From positions 1-64,000 of the forward strand of contig JALCHN010000002.1 of NCBI GenBank assembly GCA_022644775.1: a stretch of DNA of 64,000 bases, in the 5' to 3' direction. The notes under the pieces were generated by a model. The model did no database searches. It was given only the letters and a program-made list of their open reading frames with translations, and was not told the DNA's origin. This stretch comes from Eggerthellaceae bacterium. GTDB taxonomy: Bacteria; Actinomycetota; Coriobacteriia; Coriobacteriales; Eggerthellaceae. Below, one piece after another: positions 45,888-60,515 of the stretch. The translations under genes were made by a program, and so were the position numbers. The number at the start of each line of letters is the position of its first letter. The first letter of the stretch is position 1.

Positions 45888-46439
45888 CTAACCTGCAAGA
45901 AGCCTGCCGAGCGGCCGATAGCAGGCCACGGTGACGGCGGCGTTCACGGACGCCTTCCCCAGGTTGAACGGCGCCACGGCCGAAGGCACGAGGGACGTGA
46001 CGTCCTGATAGGTGACGTCGTGCACCACGAGCGGCGTAATCGCCATGTTGAGGCAGGACATGACGGCCACGACGGCCGCCACTCCCACAAGGGCGCCCAC
46101 GATCGCGAAGCCGAAGGTCGGCTTGCGGCGGTAGACGGCGCTCATCGTGAGCAGGAGCACGGTAGTCGAGGCGATGTTCATCAACGACCCCACGGGCGAG
46201 ACGATGAGGTGGGGAACCCAGGCGAGCACTGCGACGACCATCCCGACGGCCGGTCCGTAAAGCAGGGCGGCGAGCAGGGGCACGATGCCCGATGGGTCGT
46301 ATTTGAGCCAGTGGGCCTGGGGCGCCACGGGCAGTTCGATGAAGCTCAAGGTCATCGTGAGCAGCACGAGGATCACGATCGCGACGATCTGCTTGGCCGA
46401 ACGCTCGCTCCAGCCTTGCGGCAGTATGTCGGTCATCAT
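45888..46439 (-). CDS. ECF transporter S component, RibU-like (riboflavin)
   Basis: The 183-residue protein has about six membrane helices and matches the RibU style of ECF substrate-binding subunits: SFIELPVAPQAHWLKYDPSG, VPLLAALLYGPAVGMVVAVL, and a middle GSLMNIASTT loop. RibU captures riboflavin from outside and needs the EcfAAT module, which is not in this window. The nearby FMN-domain lipoprotein and apbE support a flavin substrate. The ATG has GAAGGAGC upstream, and a consensus TATAAT lies at 46483-46478. Confidence 0.75.
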   Translation of the reverse strand: MMTDILPQGWSERSAKQIVAIVILVLLTMTLSFIELPVAPQAHWLKYDPSGIVPLLAALLYGPAVGMVVAVLAWVPHLIVSPVGSLMNIASTTVLLLTMSAVYRRKPTFGFAIVGALVGVAAVVAVMSCLNMAITPLVVHDVTYQDVTSLVPSAVAPFNLGKASVNAAVTVACYRPLGRLLAG

Positions 46440-46477
46440 GAGGCGCTCCTTCGTGTCGTTGGGCCGTTGGGCCCTTC

Positions 46478-46524
46478 ATTATACGGCGCGCCCCCATCGC
46501 GGGAGGGGACGCGATGGGGGCGCG
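46478..46524 (-). promoter_or_regulatory. Promoter -10 next to a 15-bp perfect palindrome
   Basis: On the minus strand a palindrome (46524-46510 with 46501-46487, CGCGCCCCCATCGCG arms) ends 3 bases before TATAAT (46483-46478). The arms cover the -35 region. It could be the terminator of the preceding lipoprotein gene, although there is no U-run, or an operator for the RibU-like gene. Confidence 0.5.
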
Positions 46525-46566
46525 GCATGCGCCGCTGCAGAGGGCGCATGAAGCGAATAGCCGCCT

Positions 46567-47589
46567 TTAGGCCGCTTGCGCTGCGGTCTGCGCCGCTTTG
46601 GCGTAGGCGGCGGTGTCGACGAGCGTGGCGCCCGATACGGCATCGGGACCCGAGAGCTTGACCTGGTCGACGCTCTTGCCGGCGAGCGCGTTCTCGATCG
46701 CTGTCATCGAATCGAGCCAGGGGGTCGTCGCCTGGGCCTTTTCCTTCATCATCTGGGAATAGACGGTGTTGTTGGCTGCCTTCGAGGCGAGCACCTTGCC
46801 TTCGGCGTAGCCCTGGCCGAAGCCCTTGTCTGAATTGGGCACGGGGGTAAGCCCTGCGGTCGTGGCGTCGAAGAACTGGAATTCGTCGATGTTGGTGGCC
46901 ACCAGCGTCGATCCCTGCACGAGCGACACGGCGTCGCCGAATGCCTTCGTCCCGTGGCACGCTGCATTCGTGCGGCCCAGCTTCAAATCGGACCCGTCGC
47001 CGGTGTAGGTGCCCTGCACGGTGATCGTGTCATCCTGCGCTACCTGGGCGATGAGCTTCAGATAGCCGTTCGTGTCGACGAGCGTGGCGCCCGACACGGC
47101 GTCGGTGCCGGCTGACTGGATCTTATCGGGCGTTTTGCCCACGCAGTAGGCCTCGATGGCCTGAATGGACGCGAGCCAGTTCTGTGTGGAATTGGCGCTC
47201 TTCTTGATGAGTGCCGAATAGACTTCGTCGTTATCCGACTTCGAGATGAGAGTCTTGCCCGCGGCAAAGCCCTGGCCGAAGTCCTTGTCCGCATTCGGGA
47301 CGGGCGCGAGGCCTTCGGTCGTGGCGTCCATGAACTGGTAGTCGTCGACGCTCACGGCAAGGATGGTGCCGTCTTCGGCGGTGGCAACGACGGCTTGGCC
47401 AAAGCACTTCTCCCCGTGCGTGACCCCGTAGCCGCGTCTGAGCGTGACGGTTCCGCCCGCCTGGGAGCTCGCGCTGCTCGAGGAGGCGCTCCGGCCGGCG
47501 CAGGCGGTAAGCGCCCCGGCGCTCATCGCTCCCACGGCCATGACGATGCTTCCTTTGATGAAGTCGCGGCGGCTGAATTGAATGCTCAT
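46567..47589 (-). CDS. Tat-exported lipoprotein with two FMN-binding-like domains
   Basis: The 340-residue protein starts with a twin-arginine signal (FSRRDFIKGS), a hydrophobic stretch and the lipobox-like LTAC, so it is probably anchored outside the membrane. A short Ser linker is followed by two homologous domains (about 47-190 and 195-335). Both contain PVPN.DK.FGQG and end in DAVSGATLVDT, which fits the D-x-x-S-G-A-T flavinylation site used by ApbE (threonines near residues 169 and 322). The N-terminal halves (GYGVTHGEKCF; AACHGTKAFG) are unlike standard FMN_bind domains. It lies between a membrane LuxR regulator and a RibU-like gene, with apbE nearby. Confidence 0.85.
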   Translation of the reverse strand: MSIQFSRRDFIKGSIVMAVGAMSAGALTACAGRSASSSSASSQAGGTVTLRRGYGVTHGEKCFGQAVVATAEDGTILAVSVDDYQFMDATTEGLAPVPNADKDFGQGFAAGKTLISKSDNDEVYSALIKKSANSTQNWLASIQAIEAYCVGKTPDKIQSAGTDAVSGATLVDTNGYLKLIAQVAQDDTITVQGTYTGDGSDLKLGRTNAACHGTKAFGDAVSLVQGSTLVATNIDEFQFFDATTAGLTPVPNSDKGFGQGYAEGKVLASKAANNTVYSQMMKEKAQATTPWLDSMTAIENALAGKSVDQVKLSGPDAVSGATLVDTAAYAKAAQTAAQAA

Positions 47590-47719
47590 GCTGAATCCTT
47601 TCCCTCATGTCCCAGCGGCTCCATCCTGGGCCACGATGTGGGCGCTTGTGAATCGTCGCAGGGGTGGAAATCAGCGGGCGTGGCGGTGCGCGCGGCCTCG
47701 ACGAAAAGGGGGAGAGGGC

Positions 47720-49228
47720 TTATTTGCCCAGGTCAACTCCTTCGATGAGGTCCATGAGCTCCTCCCGGGAGGAAATGCCGAGTTTCTGGTAGATGTTCTT
47801 GCGGTGGGTGCGGATCGTGGATTCGGCGACCACGAGCTCCTGGGCGGCCCGTACCGCCGAGCGGCCGCGGCCGAGCAGGGCGAGCACATCGGTCTCGCGC
47901 GGCGTGAGCTTGTAGGCCGCCGCGATCGCCTCGCAGCGCTCGGCGTAGGTATCGACTGCCTGTTGAGCGGATTTCACCGAATCGATGCCCGCCAAGAGCC
48001 CGCGCCACAGGCGCTGGCCCGGCACGACGGCGAACAGGGCGACCGTGCCCGCCATGAGCGCGACGGCGGTGGGGTAGAGCGCAGCGGTGGCGCTGTCGAT
48101 GTGCAGGGGCGCGTTCACGATCAAATCGACCAGGCAGAGCGTGACGAGTGCCAGGCTCGCACCCGGCAGGGCGAGCGAGGACATGCGGCCGGCGGCCACG
48201 ACGAGCATGGTGCCCATGAGGGCGGCATAGACCACGCAGTAGGCCACGGCCCCGCTCATGACGGCCGCCCGCGTCTGCGCGGGGTCGACGAGCACCCCTA
48301 CAGCAAAGGTGGCGAAGGCGACGAGGGGCAAGAAGAAGCGATATGCGAAGGTGATGAGCCCCTGGTCGCTTTTGAAGCGGGCGAGCGGCGTCAACGCTGC
48401 GAGCCCCGCCATCGCGCAGACGGCATCGGGCAGGTCGGCTGCCTGGCGCACCGTGGGCATAAGGCCGCAGACCGCGTCGAAGAGGAGCAGCACGGCCAGG
48501 GGCGCCACGATGAAGAAGAGGGCGCGGGCAACGGGCGATTCTATTTGGCCGCCGTCGAGCAACGAAGCGTCCATATGGCCGAAGACGTCCCACCAGTTGC
48601 TCTGCTCGGAATCGTTGTGTCGGGAAGCGCCGCCGCGTCGTGCAGAGGCGTGCAGGCACCCCGCGATAGCGACGACGGCGCTTGTAGCCAAGAGAGCGCG
48701 GGTGACGTCGGGGCCGGCGAAGGCGAGCGCGATGCTCGCCGCCCCGATTGCCAAGCAGATGCCCACGGTGGTCGCGAGCGCGCGTCGGAAGTCGGCGATG
48801 CCCAAAAGGCTGAACCAGGTGAGGGCGAGCACGGCCGACCCTGCGCCCGTAAGCAGGCCGGCCGTCGTTTCCCAGGCGAAGCCCGAAAGGATGCCGAAGC
48901 TCCAGGAGGCAAGCACTGCGGCGCCCGCCGCATAACAGGTGGCGCCCGCAAGGAGCACGGGGCGGCCAATTCGTGCGTAGGCGGTTTTCAGCAGGCAGAC
49001 GAACAGGTAGCCGAGCGCAACTGCCATGACCGCCAGACAGAAGGCGTGCAGAAAGGGGGCCGACGAATCGAGGACCCGGCTCTCTCCGTCGGCGCCCCGA
49101 GCGATGACCTTGTCCCAGGCGCCCAAAGCGGGAAGGGTGAGCGGGCTCGTGGCGGCGAAGACGAACAGGGCGACCGCGTCGAAGCCGCGAAGCGAGCCTG
49201 CTTGCCAGTGTCGGTCTTCTGATCGCAT
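47720..49228 (-). CDS. LuxR-type regulator with polytopic membrane sensor
   Basis: The 502-residue protein has about twelve membrane helices (residues 15-410) and a C-terminal LuxR helix-turn-helix (about 432-495: LTPRETDVLALLGRGRS, VVAESTIRTHRKNIYQKLGI). This architecture is greatly expanded in Eggerthellaceae, often beside respiratory or flavin-dependent enzymes. The sensed signal is unknown. ATG 49228 is chosen because AAAGGAAGG precedes it and the hydrophobic region starts normally; the much longer open frame upstream is antisense to apbE. It is divergent from apbE and upstream of the flavoprotein gene on the same strand. Confidence 0.88.
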   Translation of the reverse strand: MRSEDRHWQAGSLRGFDAVALFVFAATSPLTLPALGAWDKVIARGADGESRVLDSSAPFLHAFCLAVMAVALGYLFVCLLKTAYARIGRPVLLAGATCYAAGAAVLASWSFGILSGFAWETTAGLLTGAGSAVLALTWFSLLGIADFRRALATTVGICLAIGAASIALAFAGPDVTRALLATSAVVAIAGCLHASARRGGASRHNDSEQSNWWDVFGHMDASLLDGGQIESPVARALFFIVAPLAVLLLFDAVCGLMPTVRQAADLPDAVCAMAGLAALTPLARFKSDQGLITFAYRFFLPLVAFATFAVGVLVDPAQTRAAVMSGAVAYCVVYAALMGTMLVVAAGRMSSLALPGASLALVTLCLVDLIVNAPLHIDSATAALYPTAVALMAGTVALFAVVPGQRLWRGLLAGIDSVKSAQQAVDTYAERCEAIAAAYKLTPRETDVLALLGRGRSAVRAAQELVVAESTIRTHRKNIYQKLGISSREELMDLIEGVDLGK

Positions 49229-49360
49229 GACGCCCTTCCTTTCGTTACGGGACATTCGTGCCCTCGGTTGGGCGTGGCGTACAGTATAGTTGAAGGCCGA
49301 ACGAGCAGCGCCGACGTCCGCCGCTTGCGCCGGCTGCCTAACTGAAAGGGGCTCATCGCC

Positions 49361-50293
49361 ATGGATACGCGGGAATTCTTCCTTTTCGACACGGTCAACA
49401 CCGTGACGGCGCCCGTCCTTTCCGACGAGACGATGGCGGCGGTCGAGTCTGCCTGCCTGCGCTACGAAAAGCTCTTTTCTCGCTTTGACGAAGGCGGCGA
49501 GCTCTACCGCGTCAACCATGCGCGCGGCCGCGAAGTCGAGGTCGACCCCGAACTTGCCTGCTTCATCGCCCGGGCGCTCGACTACTGCGCCGCTTCCGAC
49601 GGGCTCTTCGACATCACGATGGGCGCGGTCACGCGTTTGTGGGACTTCAAGCACGGCACGGTGCCCGCCGAAGACGACGTGCGGGCTGCCCTTTCCCACG
49701 TCGATTGGCGCGGCGTGCACGTGGGGGAGGCGAGCGTACGGCTCGACGACCCCGAAGCGGTTCTCGAGCTCGGCGGCATCGCCAAGGGCTACATCGCCGA
49801 CGGCGTGCTCGACGTCCTTGCCGATCGCGGGGTCGACCATGCGATCGTGAACCTGGGCGGCAACGTGGCCGTGCGGGGAGGCCGTCCCGACGGGACCCCT
49901 TGGCAGGTGGGTCTGCGCCAGCCGCTTGCCTCGCACGACATGCCGATTCTCCAATCCTTCGCCGTGGTGGGCGTGACGAACGGGTCTGTGGTGACGAGCG
50001 GCGTCTACGAGCGGGCCTTCGAGCGCGATGGGCGGTCCTATCACCACATCCTCGACCCGCGCACGGGCTTTCCGGCCCGCACCGACGTCGTGAGCGCGAC
50101 CGTGATCTCGCCCACCTCCCTCGACGGCGACGGGTATTCCACGACGCTCGTGCTGATGGGCGTCGACCGCGCGCTCGAGTTCGCCCTCGCCCGGCCCGAC
50201 CTCGACATCGTCTTGGTCGACGACCACGGCCAGGTGCTCGCCACGCCTGGGGTGGGCGAGCGCATTCCTTTCCGGCTGGTCGACGGCCAGTAG
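49361..50293 (+). CDS. apbE: FAD:protein FMN transferase ApbE
   Basis: The 310-residue protein is ApbE: FFLFDTVNTVTA, FSRFDEGGELYRVN, ELGGIAKGYIADGVLDVL, IVNLGGNVAVRG, GSVVTSGVYERAF, HHILDPRTGFPA and VISPTSLDGDGYSTTLVLMG (Mg2+ and FAD binding). It attaches FMN from FAD to a Ser/Thr of the D-x-x-S/T-G-A-T motif. The divergent lipoprotein with two such motifs is the obvious substrate. No signal peptide or lipobox is visible, so an internal location, with flavinylation before Tat export, is possible. TATAGT at 49285-49290 is a candidate -10. Confidence 0.94.
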   Translation: MDTREFFLFDTVNTVTAPVLSDETMAAVESACLRYEKLFSRFDEGGELYRVNHARGREVEVDPELACFIARALDYCAASDGLFDITMGAVTRLWDFKHGTVPAEDDVRAALSHVDWRGVHVGEASVRLDDPEAVLELGGIAKGYIADGVLDVLADRGVDHAIVNLGGNVAVRGGRPDGTPWQVGLRQPLASHDMPILQSFAVVGVTNGSVVTSGVYERAFERDGRSYHHILDPRTGFPARTDVVSATVISPTSLDGDGYSTTLVLMGVDRALEFALARPDLDIVLVDDHGQVLATPGVGERIPFRLVDGQ

Positions 50294-50299
50294 GGCGCG

Positions 50300-51193
50300 C
50301 TAGGAGCGCTCGCTCCGCGTGAAGGCGGCCATGCGCTCCAGCGCATCCTTGTGCTCGGGGAAGGCGCTCATGAGGGCGCCGCAGTGGGGCAGGTCCTCGT
50401 AGCAGTGCGCCTCGACGCGCACGTCGCTTGCGCGCATCTCGTCTGTGAGCAGCTCGTTCTGCTCGCGGTACATTTCCCGGCCCCCGTAGAGTAGAAGCGT
50501 GGGCGGGAAATGGTGGTCGAAGGTGATGCTGCGCGGGTTCACGAGCGCGCTTTCCAGCGAGAGCGGGCCGAAGAAGCTCTTCTGCATCGTTTCGGGGAAG
50601 GCGCTCGACACGAGCTGGTCGGCGCCCTCGTGGGCCTTAAGGCTCGCGCGCTGTTCCCCTTCGGCCAGGCCCGTGTCGGGCGAGACGCAGATGAGGCCCG
50701 TGGGCTTGGCGTCGGTCTGGGCGCAGATCGCCAGGCAGAGGTTGGCGCCGATGCCATCGCCGGCGAGATAGGTGTTCTCCTTGCCCTGCTGCACGTAGGC
50801 GTCGATGTAGAGCCGCTCGATCCAGTTCATCGCGTCGATCGCGTTGTGGCCGGGGCCTTTGGGGTAGCGGCCCACGATCACGCGGGCCTGGGCCGCTGCG
50901 GCCAGGCGGGCGGCCGCAACCAGCTGGAAGGACAGGGGCTCGAGCGTGCCGGCGCCGCCGGGGGCGCACACGATCGCCGTGCGGGGCGCCGCGCCTTTAG
51001 GCTCGAAGGCGACGTAGAGGAAGTCTCGGAAGGCGCCCTCCTCTACACGCGCCGTGCGGGCGGCGGCGCGGGGTACGTGCATGTCGGTGCCGGGGTCGGC
51101 GGCATAGGCTCGAAGCGACGACTTCACCAGGTTGCCCAGCTGGTGGTTGACGAAGCCGGCGACGGCGTCGAAGGCCCGTGCGCGCTTGCTCAT
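50300..51193 (-). CDS. Alpha/beta-hydrolase of the HSL type with substituted nucleophile
   Basis: The 297-residue protein follows the hormone-sensitive-lipase layout: APGGAGTLEP where HGGG is usual, ARVIVGRYPKGPG, the nucleophile elbow AGDGIGANLCLA, TLLLYGGREMYREQ and EDLPHCGAL with the late His. In relatives the elbow reads GDSAGGN; here the serine is glycine, so hydrolase activity is doubtful. The ATG at 51193 overlaps the ygiQ stop (ATGA), so it is translated with ygiQ. Confidence 0.8.
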   Translation of the reverse strand: MSKRARAFDAVAGFVNHQLGNLVKSSLRAYAADPGTDMHVPRAAARTARVEEGAFRDFLYVAFEPKGAAPRTAIVCAPGGAGTLEPLSFQLVAAARLAAAAQARVIVGRYPKGPGHNAIDAMNWIERLYIDAYVQQGKENTYLAGDGIGANLCLAICAQTDAKPTGLICVSPDTGLAEGEQRASLKAHEGADQLVSSAFPETMQKSFFGPLSLESALVNPRSITFDHHFPPTLLLYGGREMYREQNELLTDEMRASDVRVEAHCYEDLPHCGALMSAFPEHKDALERMAAFTRSERS

Positions 51194-53274
51194 CGTGCGC
51201 TCGCCCCCGTCGTGCCGCGTCCCGATTGGGTCCGGGTGCCTGCGCGCTTCGTGCCGCCCTTGCCGCGTGTGCCGGCTGCGCCGTTTGTGCGGTTGTCCTT
51301 GCCGTGCGCGCCCCGGGCCCGCGCGCTTGCGCCGGAGCGGCCGTTGGCGCCCTTGCGCGAACGGCCCTCCTGCGCCGGGCGCCGGCCGTTGCTGGCGCCT
51401 CCGCGTTTCGCCTTGTCGCCGGCGTGCGGGCGACTTTCGCCCTTTTCGGGCTTCACCAGGCACTTCGGCCCGTAGCCGATAAGGTCCTCGCGATGGGCGG
51501 CCATAAGCGCCTCCCGCACGAGGGGTCGGTTCTTGGGGTTGCGGTACTGGATGAGCGCCCGCTGCATGGCTTTTTCGTGCGGGCTGCGCGGGCAGTAGAC
51601 CGCCTCCATCGTGCGCGGGTCGACGCCCGTGTAGTAGATGCAGGTCGAAATCGTCGAGGGCGTGGGGTAGAAGTCCGACACCTGTTCGGGGTTGAAGCCC
51701 AAATCGCGGCAGAATTCGGCGAGCTCGACGGCCTCCTTCATCGTGGATCCGGGATGCGAGGACATGAGGTAGGGCAGGACGTACTGCTCCTTGCCAATTT
51801 CCCTCGTGTAGTCGTTGAAGGCGTCGACGAACCGCTCGTAGACCGCATTGCTCGGCTTGCCCATCACCTTGAGCACCGTGTCGGACACGTGCTCGGGTGC
51901 GAGCCGCAGCTGGCCGCTCACGTGGTAGCGCACGAGCTCGTGGAAGAAGGTGGGGTCGGGATCGAGCAGGACGTAGTCGAAGCGGATCCCGCTGCGGATG
52001 AAGACCTTCTTCACTCCGGGCAGGGCGCGCAGCTCACGTAAGAGCTCCACGTAGTCCTCGTGCGTAACGGTGAGCTTGCTGCAGGGTTCGGGCGACAGGC
52101 ACCGCTTGGTGGGGCAGGCCCCGTGCTTGGCCTGCTTGGCGCAGGCGGGCACGCGGAAGTTGGCGGTGGGGCCGCCCACGTCGTGGATGTAGCCCTTGAA
52201 ATCGGGGTCGCGAATCATCTCTTTCGCTTCGGCCACGATGCTCTCCCGGCTGCGGGCTTGGATGATCCGCCCCTGGTGGAAGTTGAGCGAGCAGAAGGCG
52301 CAGTCGCCCAGGCAGCCGCGGTTGCTCGTGAGGCTGAACTTCACTTCGGCAAGGGCCGGGATGCCGCCCGCGGCCGCGTAGTCGGGGTGCCAGGTGCGCG
52401 TGTAGGGGAAGCGGTAGAGCTCGTCGAATTCGGGCGTGGACAGGGGCTCGCTCGGCGGGTTCTGCACCACGTAGACGCCGTGGGGGTATTCCTCCACAAG
52501 CGTGCGGGCCGAAAAGGGGTCGAGGTTGCGGTACTGCACGCCGAAGCTGCGGGCGTAGTTGAGCTTGTCGGCTTCCAGCTCTTCCCAACTGGGCAGCATG
52601 ACGGGACGGTCGCAGTGGTCGATCGACCGGCATCGGTAGACCGTGCCCGGAATGAAGGTGAGGTCGGCGACCGAAAGGCCGGCATCGAGCGCTTCGGCGA
52701 TAGCGACGATCGACTTCTCGCCCATGCCGTAGCTAATAAGGTCGGCGCCCGAATCGAGCAGGATCGACCGCTTGAGCTTGTCCTGCCAGTAGTCGTAGTG
52801 GGCCAGGCGGCGAAGGCTTGCCTCGATGCCGCCGAGCACGATCGGCACGTCCTTGTAGGTGCGGCGGATCAGGTTGCCGTAGACGACCGCGGCATGGTCG
52901 GGGCGCAGGCCCATCTCTCCGCCGGGCGAATAGTAGTCGTAGCGGCGGCGGCGCTTGGCCACCGTGTAGTGGTTGACCATCGAGTCCATCGCGCCGGCGG
53001 AGACTAAAAAGGCCAGGCGCGGGCGGCCGAAGACGTCGATCGAGGCGGGGTCGTGCCAGTCGGGCTGGGCGATGATGCCCACCGAATAGCCGTGCGCTTC
53101 CAGCAGCCGGGTGAGGATCGCCATGCCGAAGGAGGGATGGTCGACGTAGGCGTCGCCCGACACGAAGACGAAATCGACTTCGTTCCACCCGCGCGCTGCC
53201 GCATCGGCGCGGGTGACGGGCAGGAAGGCCGACCGGTCGGGCAGGGGCGCGGGTTCGTGCTTCTTGTGCGCCAT
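51190..53274 (-). CDS. YgiQ family radical SAM protein with basic tail
   Basis: The 694-residue protein matches YgiQ (UPF0313): FVFVSGDAYVDHPSFG, YYSPGGEMGLRPDHA, VLGGIEASLRRLAHYDYW, and the cluster motif NRGCLGDCAFCSLNFHQGR (CxxxCxxC near residue 317). Its substrate is not established. The last 80 residues are a low-complexity Arg/Gly/Lys/Ala tail, likely RNA-binding or disordered, absent from many relatives. It is the middle gene of a tcdA-ygiQ-hydrolase operon (4 bases to tcdA, overlap to the hydrolase). Confidence 0.9.
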   Translation of the reverse strand: MAHKKHEPAPLPDRSAFLPVTRADAAARGWNEVDFVFVSGDAYVDHPSFGMAILTRLLEAHGYSVGIIAQPDWHDPASIDVFGRPRLAFLVSAGAMDSMVNHYTVAKRRRRYDYYSPGGEMGLRPDHAAVVYGNLIRRTYKDVPIVLGGIEASLRRLAHYDYWQDKLKRSILLDSGADLISYGMGEKSIVAIAEALDAGLSVADLTFIPGTVYRCRSIDHCDRPVMLPSWEELEADKLNYARSFGVQYRNLDPFSARTLVEEYPHGVYVVQNPPSEPLSTPEFDELYRFPYTRTWHPDYAAAGGIPALAEVKFSLTSNRGCLGDCAFCSLNFHQGRIIQARSRESIVAEAKEMIRDPDFKGYIHDVGGPTANFRVPACAKQAKHGACPTKRCLSPEPCSKLTVTHEDYVELLRELRALPGVKKVFIRSGIRFDYVLLDPDPTFFHELVRYHVSGQLRLAPEHVSDTVLKVMGKPSNAVYERFVDAFNDYTREIGKEQYVLPYLMSSHPGSTMKEAVELAEFCRDLGFNPEQVSDFYPTPSTISTCIYYTGVDPRTMEAVYCPRSPHEKAMQRALIQYRNPKNRPLVREALMAAHREDLIGYGPKCLVKPEKGESRPHAGDKAKRGGASNGRRPAQEGRSRKGANGRSGASARARGAHGKDNRTNGAAGTRGKGGTKRAGTRTQSGRGTTGASAR

Positions 53275-57261: not shown

Positions 57262-57276
57262 GTCTGCAGCACAAAA

Positions 57277-57386
57277 CTTCAGGGCGAGGCGCAATTCCTC
57301 ACCGGCGGTACAGCCCGCGAACCTGGCAACAGGCCGATTCGGTGCAATTCCGAAGCCGACAGTATAGTCTGGATGGAAGAAGTTGG
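57277..57386 (+). ncRNA. FMN riboswitch (RFN element)
   Basis: The highly conserved RFN blocks are present in order: AGGGCGAGGCGCAATTCC, TCACCGGCGGTACAGCCCGC, GATTCGGTGCAATTCCGAAG, CCGACAGTATAGTCTGGATG and GAAGAAG. It binds FMN and lowers expression of the riboflavin genes that follow. Confidence 0.97.
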
Positions 57387-57410
57387 GCGGGGCTCGACGG
57401 GCCCTGCTTT

Positions 57411-57446
57411 GCCCCGTGTTCGCGTGCGCGAATGCGGGGCTTTTTT
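57411..57446 (+). terminator. Riboswitch terminator of the rib operon
   Basis: GCCCCG...TTCGCG pairs with CGCGAA...CGGGGC and is followed by six T residues. It is the expected FMN-controlled terminator. Confidence 0.92.
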
Positions 57447-57491
57447 CTGTGAGGCGCACAGCGCTCGCCCGTGCATGGGAAAGGAGCAGCT

Positions 57492-58610
57492 GTGTCGACA
57501 GACGAAGAATTCATGTTGCATGCGCTGCAGCTGGCCAAGCGGGGCTTCGGCCGCGTGGCGCCCAACCCAGCGGTGGGCGCCGTCATCGTGGCGAGCAACG
57601 GCCGCGTGATCGGCGAGGGCTGGCACGAGCGTTTCGGCGGCTTGCATGCCGAGCGCAACGCGTTCGCCCACTGCACCGATGACACGCAAGGCGCCACCCT
57701 CTACGTGACGCTCGAGCCCTGCTGCCATTGGGGCAAGACGCCGCCCTGCACCGACATCATCATCGAGAAGAAGATCGGCCGCGTCGTCGTGGGGTCGATG
57801 GACCCCAACCCGCTCGTCGCGGGCAAGGGCGTGCGTATCCTGCGCGAGGCCGGCATCGACGTCGTCACGGGCGTGTGCAAGAAGGCCTGCGATGATTTGA
57901 ACCGTCCCTTCTTCCACTACATCACCACCAAGCGCCCCTACGTGATCTTGAAGTACGCGATGACGCTCGACGGCAAGATCGCCACGCGCACGGGCGCGAG
58001 CAAGTGGATCACCGGCGAAGAGGCGCGCTTCCGCGTGCATCAGGACCGTAACCGCTACGGCGCTGTTTGCGTAGGCGTGGGCACGGTCCTCGCCGACGAC
58101 CCCCGTCTCACCTGCCGCGTCGAAGGCGGCGCCAACCCCCTGCGCGTCGTCGTCGACTCGCATCTGGCCACGCCGGTCGATGCAGTCCTCGTCCGAACCG
58201 CCTCCGAGGTGCCCACGCTGATCGCCACCTGCGAGGAGGGCGCCGAAGCCCGTGCGCCCTATGTGGCCGCAGGCGTCGAGGTGGCCTGTCTGCCCGGCGC
58301 CGACGGCCGCGTCGACGTCAACGCCCTGCTCGACTATCTGGGCGCCAAGGGCATCGACAGCATGATCGTCGAAGGGGGCGCCACGCTCGCGGCGACCTTT
58401 TTGGAAGAGGGCCTTGTCGACGAGGTCAACGCCTACATCGCGCCCAAGATCTTCGGCGGCGCCGACGCCAAGGGCCCCGTAGCGGGCGCGGGCGTGGAAA
58501 ACCCTGCCGCCGCCTACCGCTTCGGGGCGCCCTTCATCGTGCAGCTGGGCAACGACGTCATGCTGCGCGCGTACGCAGAGCACGACGCGCTGGAAGGCGG
58601 CGAGGCCTGA
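57492..58610 (+). CDS. ribD: Bifunctional riboflavin deaminase/reductase RibD
   Basis: The 372-residue protein has an N-terminal zinc deaminase (HALQLAKRGFGRVAPNPAVGA, HAERNAF, EPCCHWGKTPPC) and a C-terminal reductase with ILKYAMTLDGKIATRTGASKWITG-type start and IVEGGATLAATFLEEGLVDEV. It carries out the second and third steps of riboflavin synthesis. The GTG at 57492 is chosen because AAGGAG precedes it by 5 bases; an ATG 7 codons upstream would overlap that site. It overlaps ribE by one base. Confidence 0.95.
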   Translation: MSTDEEFMLHALQLAKRGFGRVAPNPAVGAVIVASNGRVIGEGWHERFGGLHAERNAFAHCTDDTQGATLYVTLEPCCHWGKTPPCTDIIIEKKIGRVVVGSMDPNPLVAGKGVRILREAGIDVVTGVCKKACDDLNRPFFHYITTKRPYVILKYAMTLDGKIATRTGASKWITGEEARFRVHQDRNRYGAVCVGVGTVLADDPRLTCRVEGGANPLRVVVDSHLATPVDAVLVRTASEVPTLIATCEEGAEARAPYVAAGVEVACLPGADGRVDVNALLDYLGAKGIDSMIVEGGATLAATFLEEGLVDEVNAYIAPKIFGGADAKGPVAGAGVENPAAAYRFGAPFIVQLGNDVMLRAYAEHDALEGGEA

Positions 58611-59272
58611 TGTTCACCGGAATCGTCGAGGAAATCGGCACCGTGCGGTCCCTGCGACGCGGCGCGCATTCAGCCGTGCTCGAAATCGCCTGCTCGAAGG
58701 TGCTCGCCGACGTCCACGTGGGCGACAGCATCTGCACCAACGGGGTGTGCCTTACCGTAACCGATTTCGGGCGCGGAGCCTTCCGCGCCGACGTCATGCA
58801 TGAAACGCTCGACCGCAGCGGGCTGGGCTCTCTTGCGCCCGGTTCCCGCGTCAACCTCGAGCGCGCGATGGCGGCCAACGGCCGTTTCGGCGGCCATATC
58901 GTATCGGGCCACATCGACGGCACGGGCACGATTTCCTCAATCGAGTACGACGACAACGCGGTCTGGTTCACGATCGAAGCGGCCCCCGAGCTCTTGCGCT
59001 ACATCGTCGAGAAAGGCTCGATCGCAATCGACGGCATCTCGCTGACGGTGGCGCGCGTGTCGGACGCTGATTTCGCCGTGTCGACCATCCCGCACACCAA
59101 CGCGGTCACCACGCTCGGCGACCGACGGGCGGGGGATAGGGTCAATCTCGAGACCGACATCATAGGCCGCTACGTCGACAAGCTCATGCGCCTCGACGCT
59201 CCCGCGGATGCCTCTGCGGCGCCCGCGCCCTCAGGCATCACTGCAGCCTTCCTCGCTGCGAACGGATTTTAG
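58610..59272 (+). CDS. ribE: Riboflavin synthase alpha chain
   Basis: The 220-residue protein has two similar lumazine-binding barrels: MFTGIVEEIGTVRSL and GDSICTNGVCLTVTDF in the first, GGHIVSGHIDGTGTI and GSIAIDGISLTVARV in the second. It dismutates two lumazines into riboflavin. Its start overlaps the ribD stop (TGATG). A 15-residue Ala/Pro linker and GITAAFLAANGF end lie past the family core. Confidence 0.95.
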   Translation: MFTGIVEEIGTVRSLRRGAHSAVLEIACSKVLADVHVGDSICTNGVCLTVTDFGRGAFRADVMHETLDRSGLGSLAPGSRVNLERAMAANGRFGGHIVSGHIDGTGTISSIEYDDNAVWFTIEAAPELLRYIVEKGSIAIDGISLTVARVSDADFAVSTIPHTNAVTTLGDRRAGDRVNLETDIIGRYVDKLMRLDAPADASAAPAPSGITAAFLAANGF

Positions 59273-59312
59273 GAACCCGGGCCCCTTCGGCCCCTACGGT
59301 TAGGAGAGACAA

Positions 59313-60515
59313 ATGACGACGATTGCTGAGATCCCCGAGGTCCTCGAAGAGATGAAGGCCGGCCATGTGGTCATGGTCATCGACGACCCCGACCGCGAGA
59401 ACGAGGGCGACTTCATCTGCGCCGCCCAGTTCGCCACGACCGCCAACGTCAACCTGATGGCGAGCCGCGCCAAGGGGCTCATCTGCATGCCCATGTCGCG
59501 CGCGTACGTCAACAAGCTTCAGCTGCCCCAGATGGTGGCCAACAACACCGACAACCACGAGACCGCCTTCACCGTATCGATCGACGCGATCGACACCACG
59601 ACGGGCATTTCGGCCGAAGAGCGGTCGATGACGGCCATGCGCACGGTGGCCGACGACGCCACGGCGCTCGACTTCCGCCGCCCGGGCCACATGTTCCCCC
59701 TGCTCGCCCGCGACAACGGCGTGCTCGAGCGCAACGGCCACACCGAGGCCACCGTCGACCTCTGTCGCCTGGCGGGGCTCAAAGAGGTGGGCCTGTGCTG
59801 CGAGATCATGCGCGACGACGGCACGATGATGCGCACCACCGAGCTTCTGCAACTTGCGGACGAACTGGACCTCAAGGTCACCACGATCAAGAAGCTCCAG
59901 GACTACCGCAAGATTCACGACAAGCTCGTGACCTGCGAGGCGAGCCCGCTTCTGCCCACCAAGTACGGCAATTTCCGCGCCTTCGGCTACGTGAACAAGC
60001 TCAACGGCGAGCACCATGTGGCGCTTGTGAAGGGCGAGATCGGCGACGGCCAGGACGTGCTCGTGCGCGTGCACAGCGAATGCCTCACCGGCGACGTTTT
60101 CGGCAGCATGCGCTGCGACTGCGGCGACCAGCTACACACGGCCATGAGCCAGATCGAGGCCGAAGGCCGCGGCATCCTGCTCTACATGCGCCAGGAAGGC
60201 CGCGGCATCGGGCTGATAAACAAGCTCAAGGCCTACGAGCTCCAGCAGCAGGGTATGGACACGGTCGAAGCCAACCTTGCCCTGGGCTTCAAAGAGGACG
60301 AGCGCGAGTACTTCATCGGCGCGCAGATTCTGAGCGATCTGGGCGTGAAGACCATGCGCCTGCTCACCAACAACCCCGACAAGATCTACCAGCTCGAAGG
60401 CTTCGGGATGGAGATTACCGAGCGCGTGCCCATCGAGATCCCGGCCAACGCCGTCGACCATGACTACCTGCTCACCAAGCAGGAGAAGATGGGCCACGCC
60501 CTCCATGTGAAATAA
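59313..60515 (+). CDS. ribBA: Bifunctional DHBP synthase / GTP cyclohydrolase II
   Basis: The 400-residue protein joins RibB (residues 1-200: [34 protein letters not shown]) to RibA (205-400: [20 protein letters not shown] with zinc cysteines, [31 protein letters not shown]). It produces both precursors of the pathway, from ribulose 5-phosphate and from GTP. GGTTAGGAGAG precedes the ATG. It sits between ribE and ribH. Confidence 0.96.

Follow-up and report, generated by a model that had tools for sequence, protein, structure and literature searches.

In a 64,000-nucleotide stretch of an Eggerthellaceae genome (assembly GCA_022644775.1, contig JALCHN010000002.1, positions 1 to 64,000; hereafter the window), we found a four-gene locus at 45888-50293 which, in a reading that we regard as reasonably probable from its sequence, encodes an electron carrier with two flavins, loaded inside the cell and exported by the twin-arginine translocation (Tat) system, together with a RibU-like membrane protein that would not be an ordinary importer. 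All four genes described in a first-pass annotation of the window were found in place (Table 1). The genes for a LuxR regulator, a lipoprotein and the RibU-like protein follow one another, and apbE, which encodes a transferase of flavin mononucleotide (FMN) from flavin adenine dinucleotide (FAD) to proteins, is divergent from them.

Conservation of this order in relatives had been chosen beforehand as one of the points on which the proposal of a functional module could fail. A search across the order Coriobacteriales found the lipoprotein in 13 of 149 genomes, and the full order apbE <> luxR-lipoprotein-ribU-like is complete in eight of these 13: the window genome, its congener Hugonella, G003, Paraeggerthella, G010, G028, Eggerthella sinensis and E. 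lenta DSM 2243 (G069). The gene order is conserved, and this ground for rejecting the module is thus absent. The most constant neighbor of the lipoprotein gene is the ribU-like gene, present in 12 of the 13 genomes; an adjacent apbE is missing in two Raoultibacter genomes. The single genome devoid of the RibU-like partner is that of Berryella, where the lipoprotein homologue (L027:8163-9074) also has no export signal, no LuxR gene accompanies it and a signal-less apbE lies alongside; this locus may be decaying.

The lipoprotein is the presumed substrate of ApbE. As first proposed, it carries two DAVSGAT sites, one per half, and these are the only matches to D.[VI]SGAT in the window (six frames, 127,996 residues). 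Its halves, repeats of about 150 aa, are 47% identical to each other (68/145), and the AlphaFold2 model (pLDDT 86) contains two similar domains. The Pfam FMN_bind model gives it only 11.3 bits for a cut-off of 22, and neither sequence nor fold searches of the PDB (fold threshold E<=0.001) returned a significant match, as would be expected if the DAVSGAT likeness were incidental and the protein received no flavin. We consider this extremely improbable: the Asp, the Gly and the acceptor Thr are kept at both sites in 13/13 homologues, apbE is linked to the gene, and a homologue adjoins ApbE in a full extracellular electron transfer (EET) locus. Moreover, the protein agrees with the published description of the FMN-bind2 class, whose domains of ~160 aa occur in even copy number, each with an S/T-G-A-T-type site, and are found by BLAST rather than by Pfam (PMC10979944). 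By its sequence, the window lipoprotein fits a two-domain FMN-bind2-type protein.

Relatives of this lipoprotein extend well beyond the Coriobacteriales. A scan of GTDB genomes found 145 of them, and the best 80 of 145, which were kept, are mostly from Firmicutes; a relative is present in 34/394 Lactobacillales genomes, and no match was found among plasmids. The EET locus mentioned above (L175) is complete, with ApbE, UbiA, a pyridine-nucleotide oxidoreductase, a NusG_II protein (EetA), a PF07456 protein (EetB) and an FMN_bind lipoprotein, and it also encodes a relative 39% identical to the window protein. The FMN_bind lipoprotein of L175 (P0006) has no detectable homology with the window-type lipoprotein (hhalign probability 2.8). 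An identification of the latter as PplA was therefore rejected, since its match is to the other lipoprotein of the complete EET locus. Another Firmicutes relative, at L083:4642-7353, is a membrane-anchored protein of 903 aa that carries five flavinylation motifs; FMN-bind2-like repeats contain four of the five.

Where would the flavins be attached? The window ApbE is unambiguous (PF02424, E=1.2e-79), with the motifs IAKG, SG.YER, HHILDP.TG and DG.ST aligned to those of 7esa, and it has no signal peptide: an in-frame stop lies five codons before its ATG. Indeed, this ApbE and the other clearly readable ApbEs linked to the lipoprotein start 1-5 residues ahead of the fold, with stops close upstream. 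It is the single apbE of the host genome (1.96 Mb), as is also the case in the 99%-complete congener. The lipoprotein, for its part, has a twin-arginine motif followed by an LTAC lipobox. The RR motif is found in all 11 homologues of the alignment (A1) with an intact N-terminus, and wherever the N-terminus of a Coriobacteriales homologue is intact, its signal is of Tat type; the Firmicutes homologues have, in nearly all cases, Sec-type lipoprotein or Sec signals. TatC was found in 13/13 lipoprotein genomes. The pairing of a signal-less ApbE with a Tat-type lipoprotein makes cytoplasmic flavin attachment before export probable, a point which the first-pass annotation had overlooked.

This arrangement appears to be part of a wider division. 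We classified 86 Coriobacteriales ApbEs for an N-terminal signal and checked the neighborhood of 83 for EetB. All exported ApbEs lie beside EetB (23/23) and all signal-less ones have no neighboring EetB (60/60), a coincidence with a Fisher p of about 5e-21 when kinship is ignored. Furthermore, in 5/5 EetB-positive genomes examined, a Sec- or transmembrane-type FMN_bind protein is found within ~4 kb of the EetB-ApbE pair, and FMN_bind proteins away from such pairs are of Tat type in most cases where the N-terminus is readable. The simplest reading of these sequences is that Coriobacteriales use two topologically matched routes, FAD export with outside loading or inside loading with Tat export, and that the window locus belongs to the second. 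In one case (L186:4515-5939), an EetA-like domain anchored in the membrane precedes ApbE in a single fusion protein, and genes for an ECF ATPase (ECF, energy-coupling factor), EcfT and EetB belong to the same operon.

An outside flavinylation of the Listeria type, with ApbE acting outside and the RibU-like protein exporting FAD as EetB does, has some appeal, as EetB is itself an S-type ECF protein that exports FAD and whose gene is linked, in Listeria and many Firmicutes, to apbE (PMC9973259), and the window locus has a different S-component linked with its apbE. We nevertheless judge it highly unlikely. No clearly readable linked ApbE has a signal peptide, a search for EetB (PF07456) in the host genome found none, and exported ApbEs in Coriobacteriales always come with EetB. 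The RibU-like protein has no PF07456 match either, so its identification as EetB was rejected.

Its identification as a RibU relative is borne out by both sequence and fold. It matches the ECF S-component family (PF12822, E=2.5e-10), its best relatives in the PDB are RibU crystal structures (TmRibU, 5kbw, E=1.7e-15, profile 7.8e-33), and 5kbw is also the best Foldseek match of its AlphaFold2 model (pLDDT 86; TM 0.93, root mean square deviation 1.5 A). The first-pass annotation had taken it for a working riboflavin importer giving the locus its own flavin supply. Besides family membership, the residues L45, D48, N131, N159 and K162, invariant across locus and riboswitch-linked RibUs, and the three EcfT genes of the host genome agree with such a function. 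However, the pair of helix 1 that docks to the ECF motor is V22/L26 and not Ala/Ala. This AxxxA motif is lost in 10/10 RibU-like proteins of Eggerthellaceae loci (V..L/M in nine, G..L in one), whereas the riboswitch-linked RibUs of this genome set have both alanines in 9/9 cases. Mutating either helix-1 alanine of ThiT abolished ECF association and transport, and bulky residues at the AxxxA positions mark S-fold proteins other than ECF transporters, including receptors (PMC11109136). Moreover, an FMN riboswitch precedes a second RibU in 9/11 genomes, with EcfT nearby in all five genomes checked. In the host and its congener, the riboswitch precedes riboflavin synthesis genes instead, and from its gene content the host makes its own riboflavin. 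As the docking motif is lost, most relatives have a riboswitch-linked RibU and the host makes riboflavin, we find a dedicated importer unlikely, and the protein is probably not an ordinary ECF importer. The electron-carrier module first proposed is thus retained as dedicated and conserved, with a lipoprotein predicted to be doubly flavinylated and exported, its own ApbE and its membrane LuxR, but not for a flavin supply of its own.

Its sequence makes it more likely that the RibU-like protein is a solitary flavin-binding partner of the lipoprotein (facilitator, sensor or redox partner). A pure sensor or transceptor, informing LuxR and neither transporting nor exchanging electrons, could be suggested by a match to 5TM-5TMR_LYT just over the cut-off (24.8 vs 24.6 bits) and by the existence of S-fold receptors in which bulky residues occupy the positions of the AxxxA alanines (PMC11109136). 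Yet the protein has no signaling domain, its conserved residues are those of ordinary RibUs and LuxR already has a membrane domain of its own, and we see this as quite unlikely. A long shot is that this S-component has abandoned transport and now acts as a flavoprotein of the membrane, docking with the double-FMN lipoprotein and handing electrons to it, so that the two proteins form a minimal flavin wire without heme or iron-sulfur centers.

The regulator is a member of the 10-12-helix LuxR family, with N-terminal transmembrane helices and a C-terminal helix-turn-helix (GerE, PF00196, E=1.2e-12, residues 441-493, at about 47750-47908). A crude hydropathy scan gave 11 hydrophobic segments (~11-12 transmembrane helices), consistent with the "about twelve" first announced. 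Membrane LuxRs are a known and expanded family in Coriobacteriia, and three of them activate neighboring enzymes on substrate (PMC9734109). A search for shared regulatory sites in the intergenic regions of the locus gave no promoter consensus. Between the lipoprotein and ribU-like genes, a strong GC-rich hairpin lies at 46480-46527, closely followed by a TATAAT on the - strand; the hairpin is not kept in the congener.

From what the sequences show directly, namely the genes and sites, the signal-less ApbE, the Tat motif, the conservation and the loss of AxxxA, the following course of events can be proposed. The membrane LuxR would sense a signal and switch the locus on, and cytoplasmic ApbE would then use cytosolic FAD to place FMN on the folded two-domain lipoprotein, at T169 and T322. 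Once loaded, the protein would be exported by Tat and, lipid-anchored outside the membrane, could carry electrons between a donor in the membrane and acceptors outside the cytoplasm. Loading inside would make FAD export unnecessary, and the RibU-like protein would serve as a solitary membrane flavin-binding partner of the lipoprotein, not as an ECF importer. We infer from the sequence the flavinylation itself, its cytoplasmic place, the use of Tat, the electron transfer and the role of the RibU-like protein.

Several points weigh against this scheme. The Tat models score the lipoprotein just below their cut-offs (TIGR01409, 16.2 bits for 16.7; PF10518, 18.5 for 22.7). The ApbE signals were assigned by a simple rule based on hydropathy, and three of the assignments were amended by eye (the L201 and L242 segments fall within the ApbE fold, and L186 is the membrane-anchored EetA-ApbE fusion), and the Coriobacteriales genomes are related, so that the counts are not independent events. 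Small Sec-type FMN_bind lipoproteins are found in the host genome (L002) and in several others whose ApbEs all seem to be without a signal, and Sec export therefore does not strictly track exported ApbE. The host genome is ~95% complete. Finally, the cluster encodes neither an electron donor nor an acceptor, in keeping with the first-pass remark that no obvious reductase or quinone-linked partner was present.

Two FMN_bind sets elsewhere in the host genome are candidate electron partners: L001, a Tat FMN_bind/FAD reductase, and L002, a cytochrome-linked set. In the latter (L002:1456-2613, host contig 24), the small Sec-type lipoprotein has as neighbors a Tat FAD reductase and an NrfH-like cytochrome with multiple CxxCH motifs. 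No FMN_bind protein beyond L001 and L002 was found in the host genome at the threshold used; with none of the RnfG/NqrC type, nothing points to an Rnf or Nqr complex, and both were rejected as the electron source. NrfH-type cytochromes were likewise rejected as a universal donor, the PF03264 matches being weak and patchy. Outside the locus, 51190-53274 encodes a YgiQ-type radical-SAM protein, recognized by eye, with a long Gly/Arg/Lys-rich C-terminal tail.

Table 1. Features of the flavin locus and of the riboflavin region in the window.
Feature	Position	Strand	Basis
RibU-like S-component, 183 aa	45888..46439	-	PF12822, TmRibU match, predicted fold
Predicted Tat lipoprotein, 340 aa, two ~150-aa domains of putative FMN-bind2 type	46567..47589	-	
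Flavinylation motif 2, DAVSGAT, T322	46624..46644	-	D316, G320, T322 invariant in 13-sequence alignment A1
Flavinylation motif 1, DAVSGAT, T169	47083..47103	-	D163, G167, T169 invariant in A1
Tat motif S-R-R-D-F-I-K of lipoprotein, then lipobox LTAC	47554..47574	-	Sequence
Membrane LuxR regulator, 502 aa	47720..49228	-	PF00196 and hydropathy
apbE, FAD:protein FMN transferase, 310 aa, without signal peptide	49361..50293	+	PF02424
FMN riboswitch ahead of riboflavin synthesis operon	57271..57388	+	RF00050, 108.8 bits, sole RF00050 match in genome
Riboflavin synthesis operon: ribD (57471-58610), then further riboflavin genes	57271-60515 (riboswitch-operon region)		

The inside/outside division of ApbEs in Coriobacteriales reaches beyond the window locus. 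In a broad survey of extracytosolic flavinylation, ApbE and FMN-binding genes were set aside when they had no signal peptide (PMC8238504), and an inside-loading route would therefore tend to be missed; the present lipoprotein additionally escapes the Pfam FMN_bind call. Our data suggest that in the gut Coriobacteriales, which are rich in FMN_bind reductases, flavins are for the most part loaded inside and the proteins exported by Tat, and the ApbE/EetB division brings independent genomic support for EetB as a FAD exporter. In a RibU relative that keeps its fold yet loses its motor-docking motif, the S-component fold would have taken on a new role. No prior description of the window-type variant or of the ApbE division was found in the open-access literature searched, subscription papers lying outside the search. 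The orthologous locus of E. lenta DSM 2243, a genetically tractable strain (PMC9734109), lies at about 3,256,800-3,261,300 of its chromosome.

The locus is a variant of known flavinylation and EET-type modules. Its LuxR resembles the E. lenta 12-helix LuxRs DadR, CadR and HcdR (PMC9734109), as a membrane regulator beside genes that it possibly controls, but those are linked to dehydroxylases and this one to a flavinylation module. The RibU-like protein shares with the RibU of ECF riboflavin transporters its fold and the residues conserved across RibUs, and differs from it by the loss of AxxxA, the absence of a riboswitch and the linkage to a lipoprotein. Like FMN-bind2 proteins (PMC10979944), the lipoprotein has an even number of ~150-160-aa domains, one ApbE site in each, and is poorly seen by Pfam FMN_bind; unlike those published, the Coriobacteriales ones are predicted to be exported by Tat and are paired with a RibU-like protein. 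Listeria and Lactobacillales EET loci comprise Ndh2, a DmkA-type UbiA, ApbE/FmnB, PplA, EetA, EetB and FmnA. The window cluster shares with them ApbE and a predicted doubly flavinylated lipoprotein, the two sites recalling PplA, but is devoid of Ndh2, UbiA, EetA and EetB; no Ndh2 or demethylmenaquinone genes were found among the four genes or their conserved neighbors. A RibU-like S-protein stands in place of EetB, the cluster has a membrane LuxR in addition, its ApbE has no signal peptide, and its lipoprotein is of Tat and not Sec type. In Klebsiella pneumoniae, a cytoplasmic signal-less ApbE modifies a cytoplasmic fumarate reductase (reviewed in PMC12052999). The window locus would likewise modify its substrate inside the cell, whereas the Listeria-type system attaches its flavins outside; unlike the Klebsiella substrate, which stays in the cytoplasm, the flavinylated lipoprotein would then be exported.

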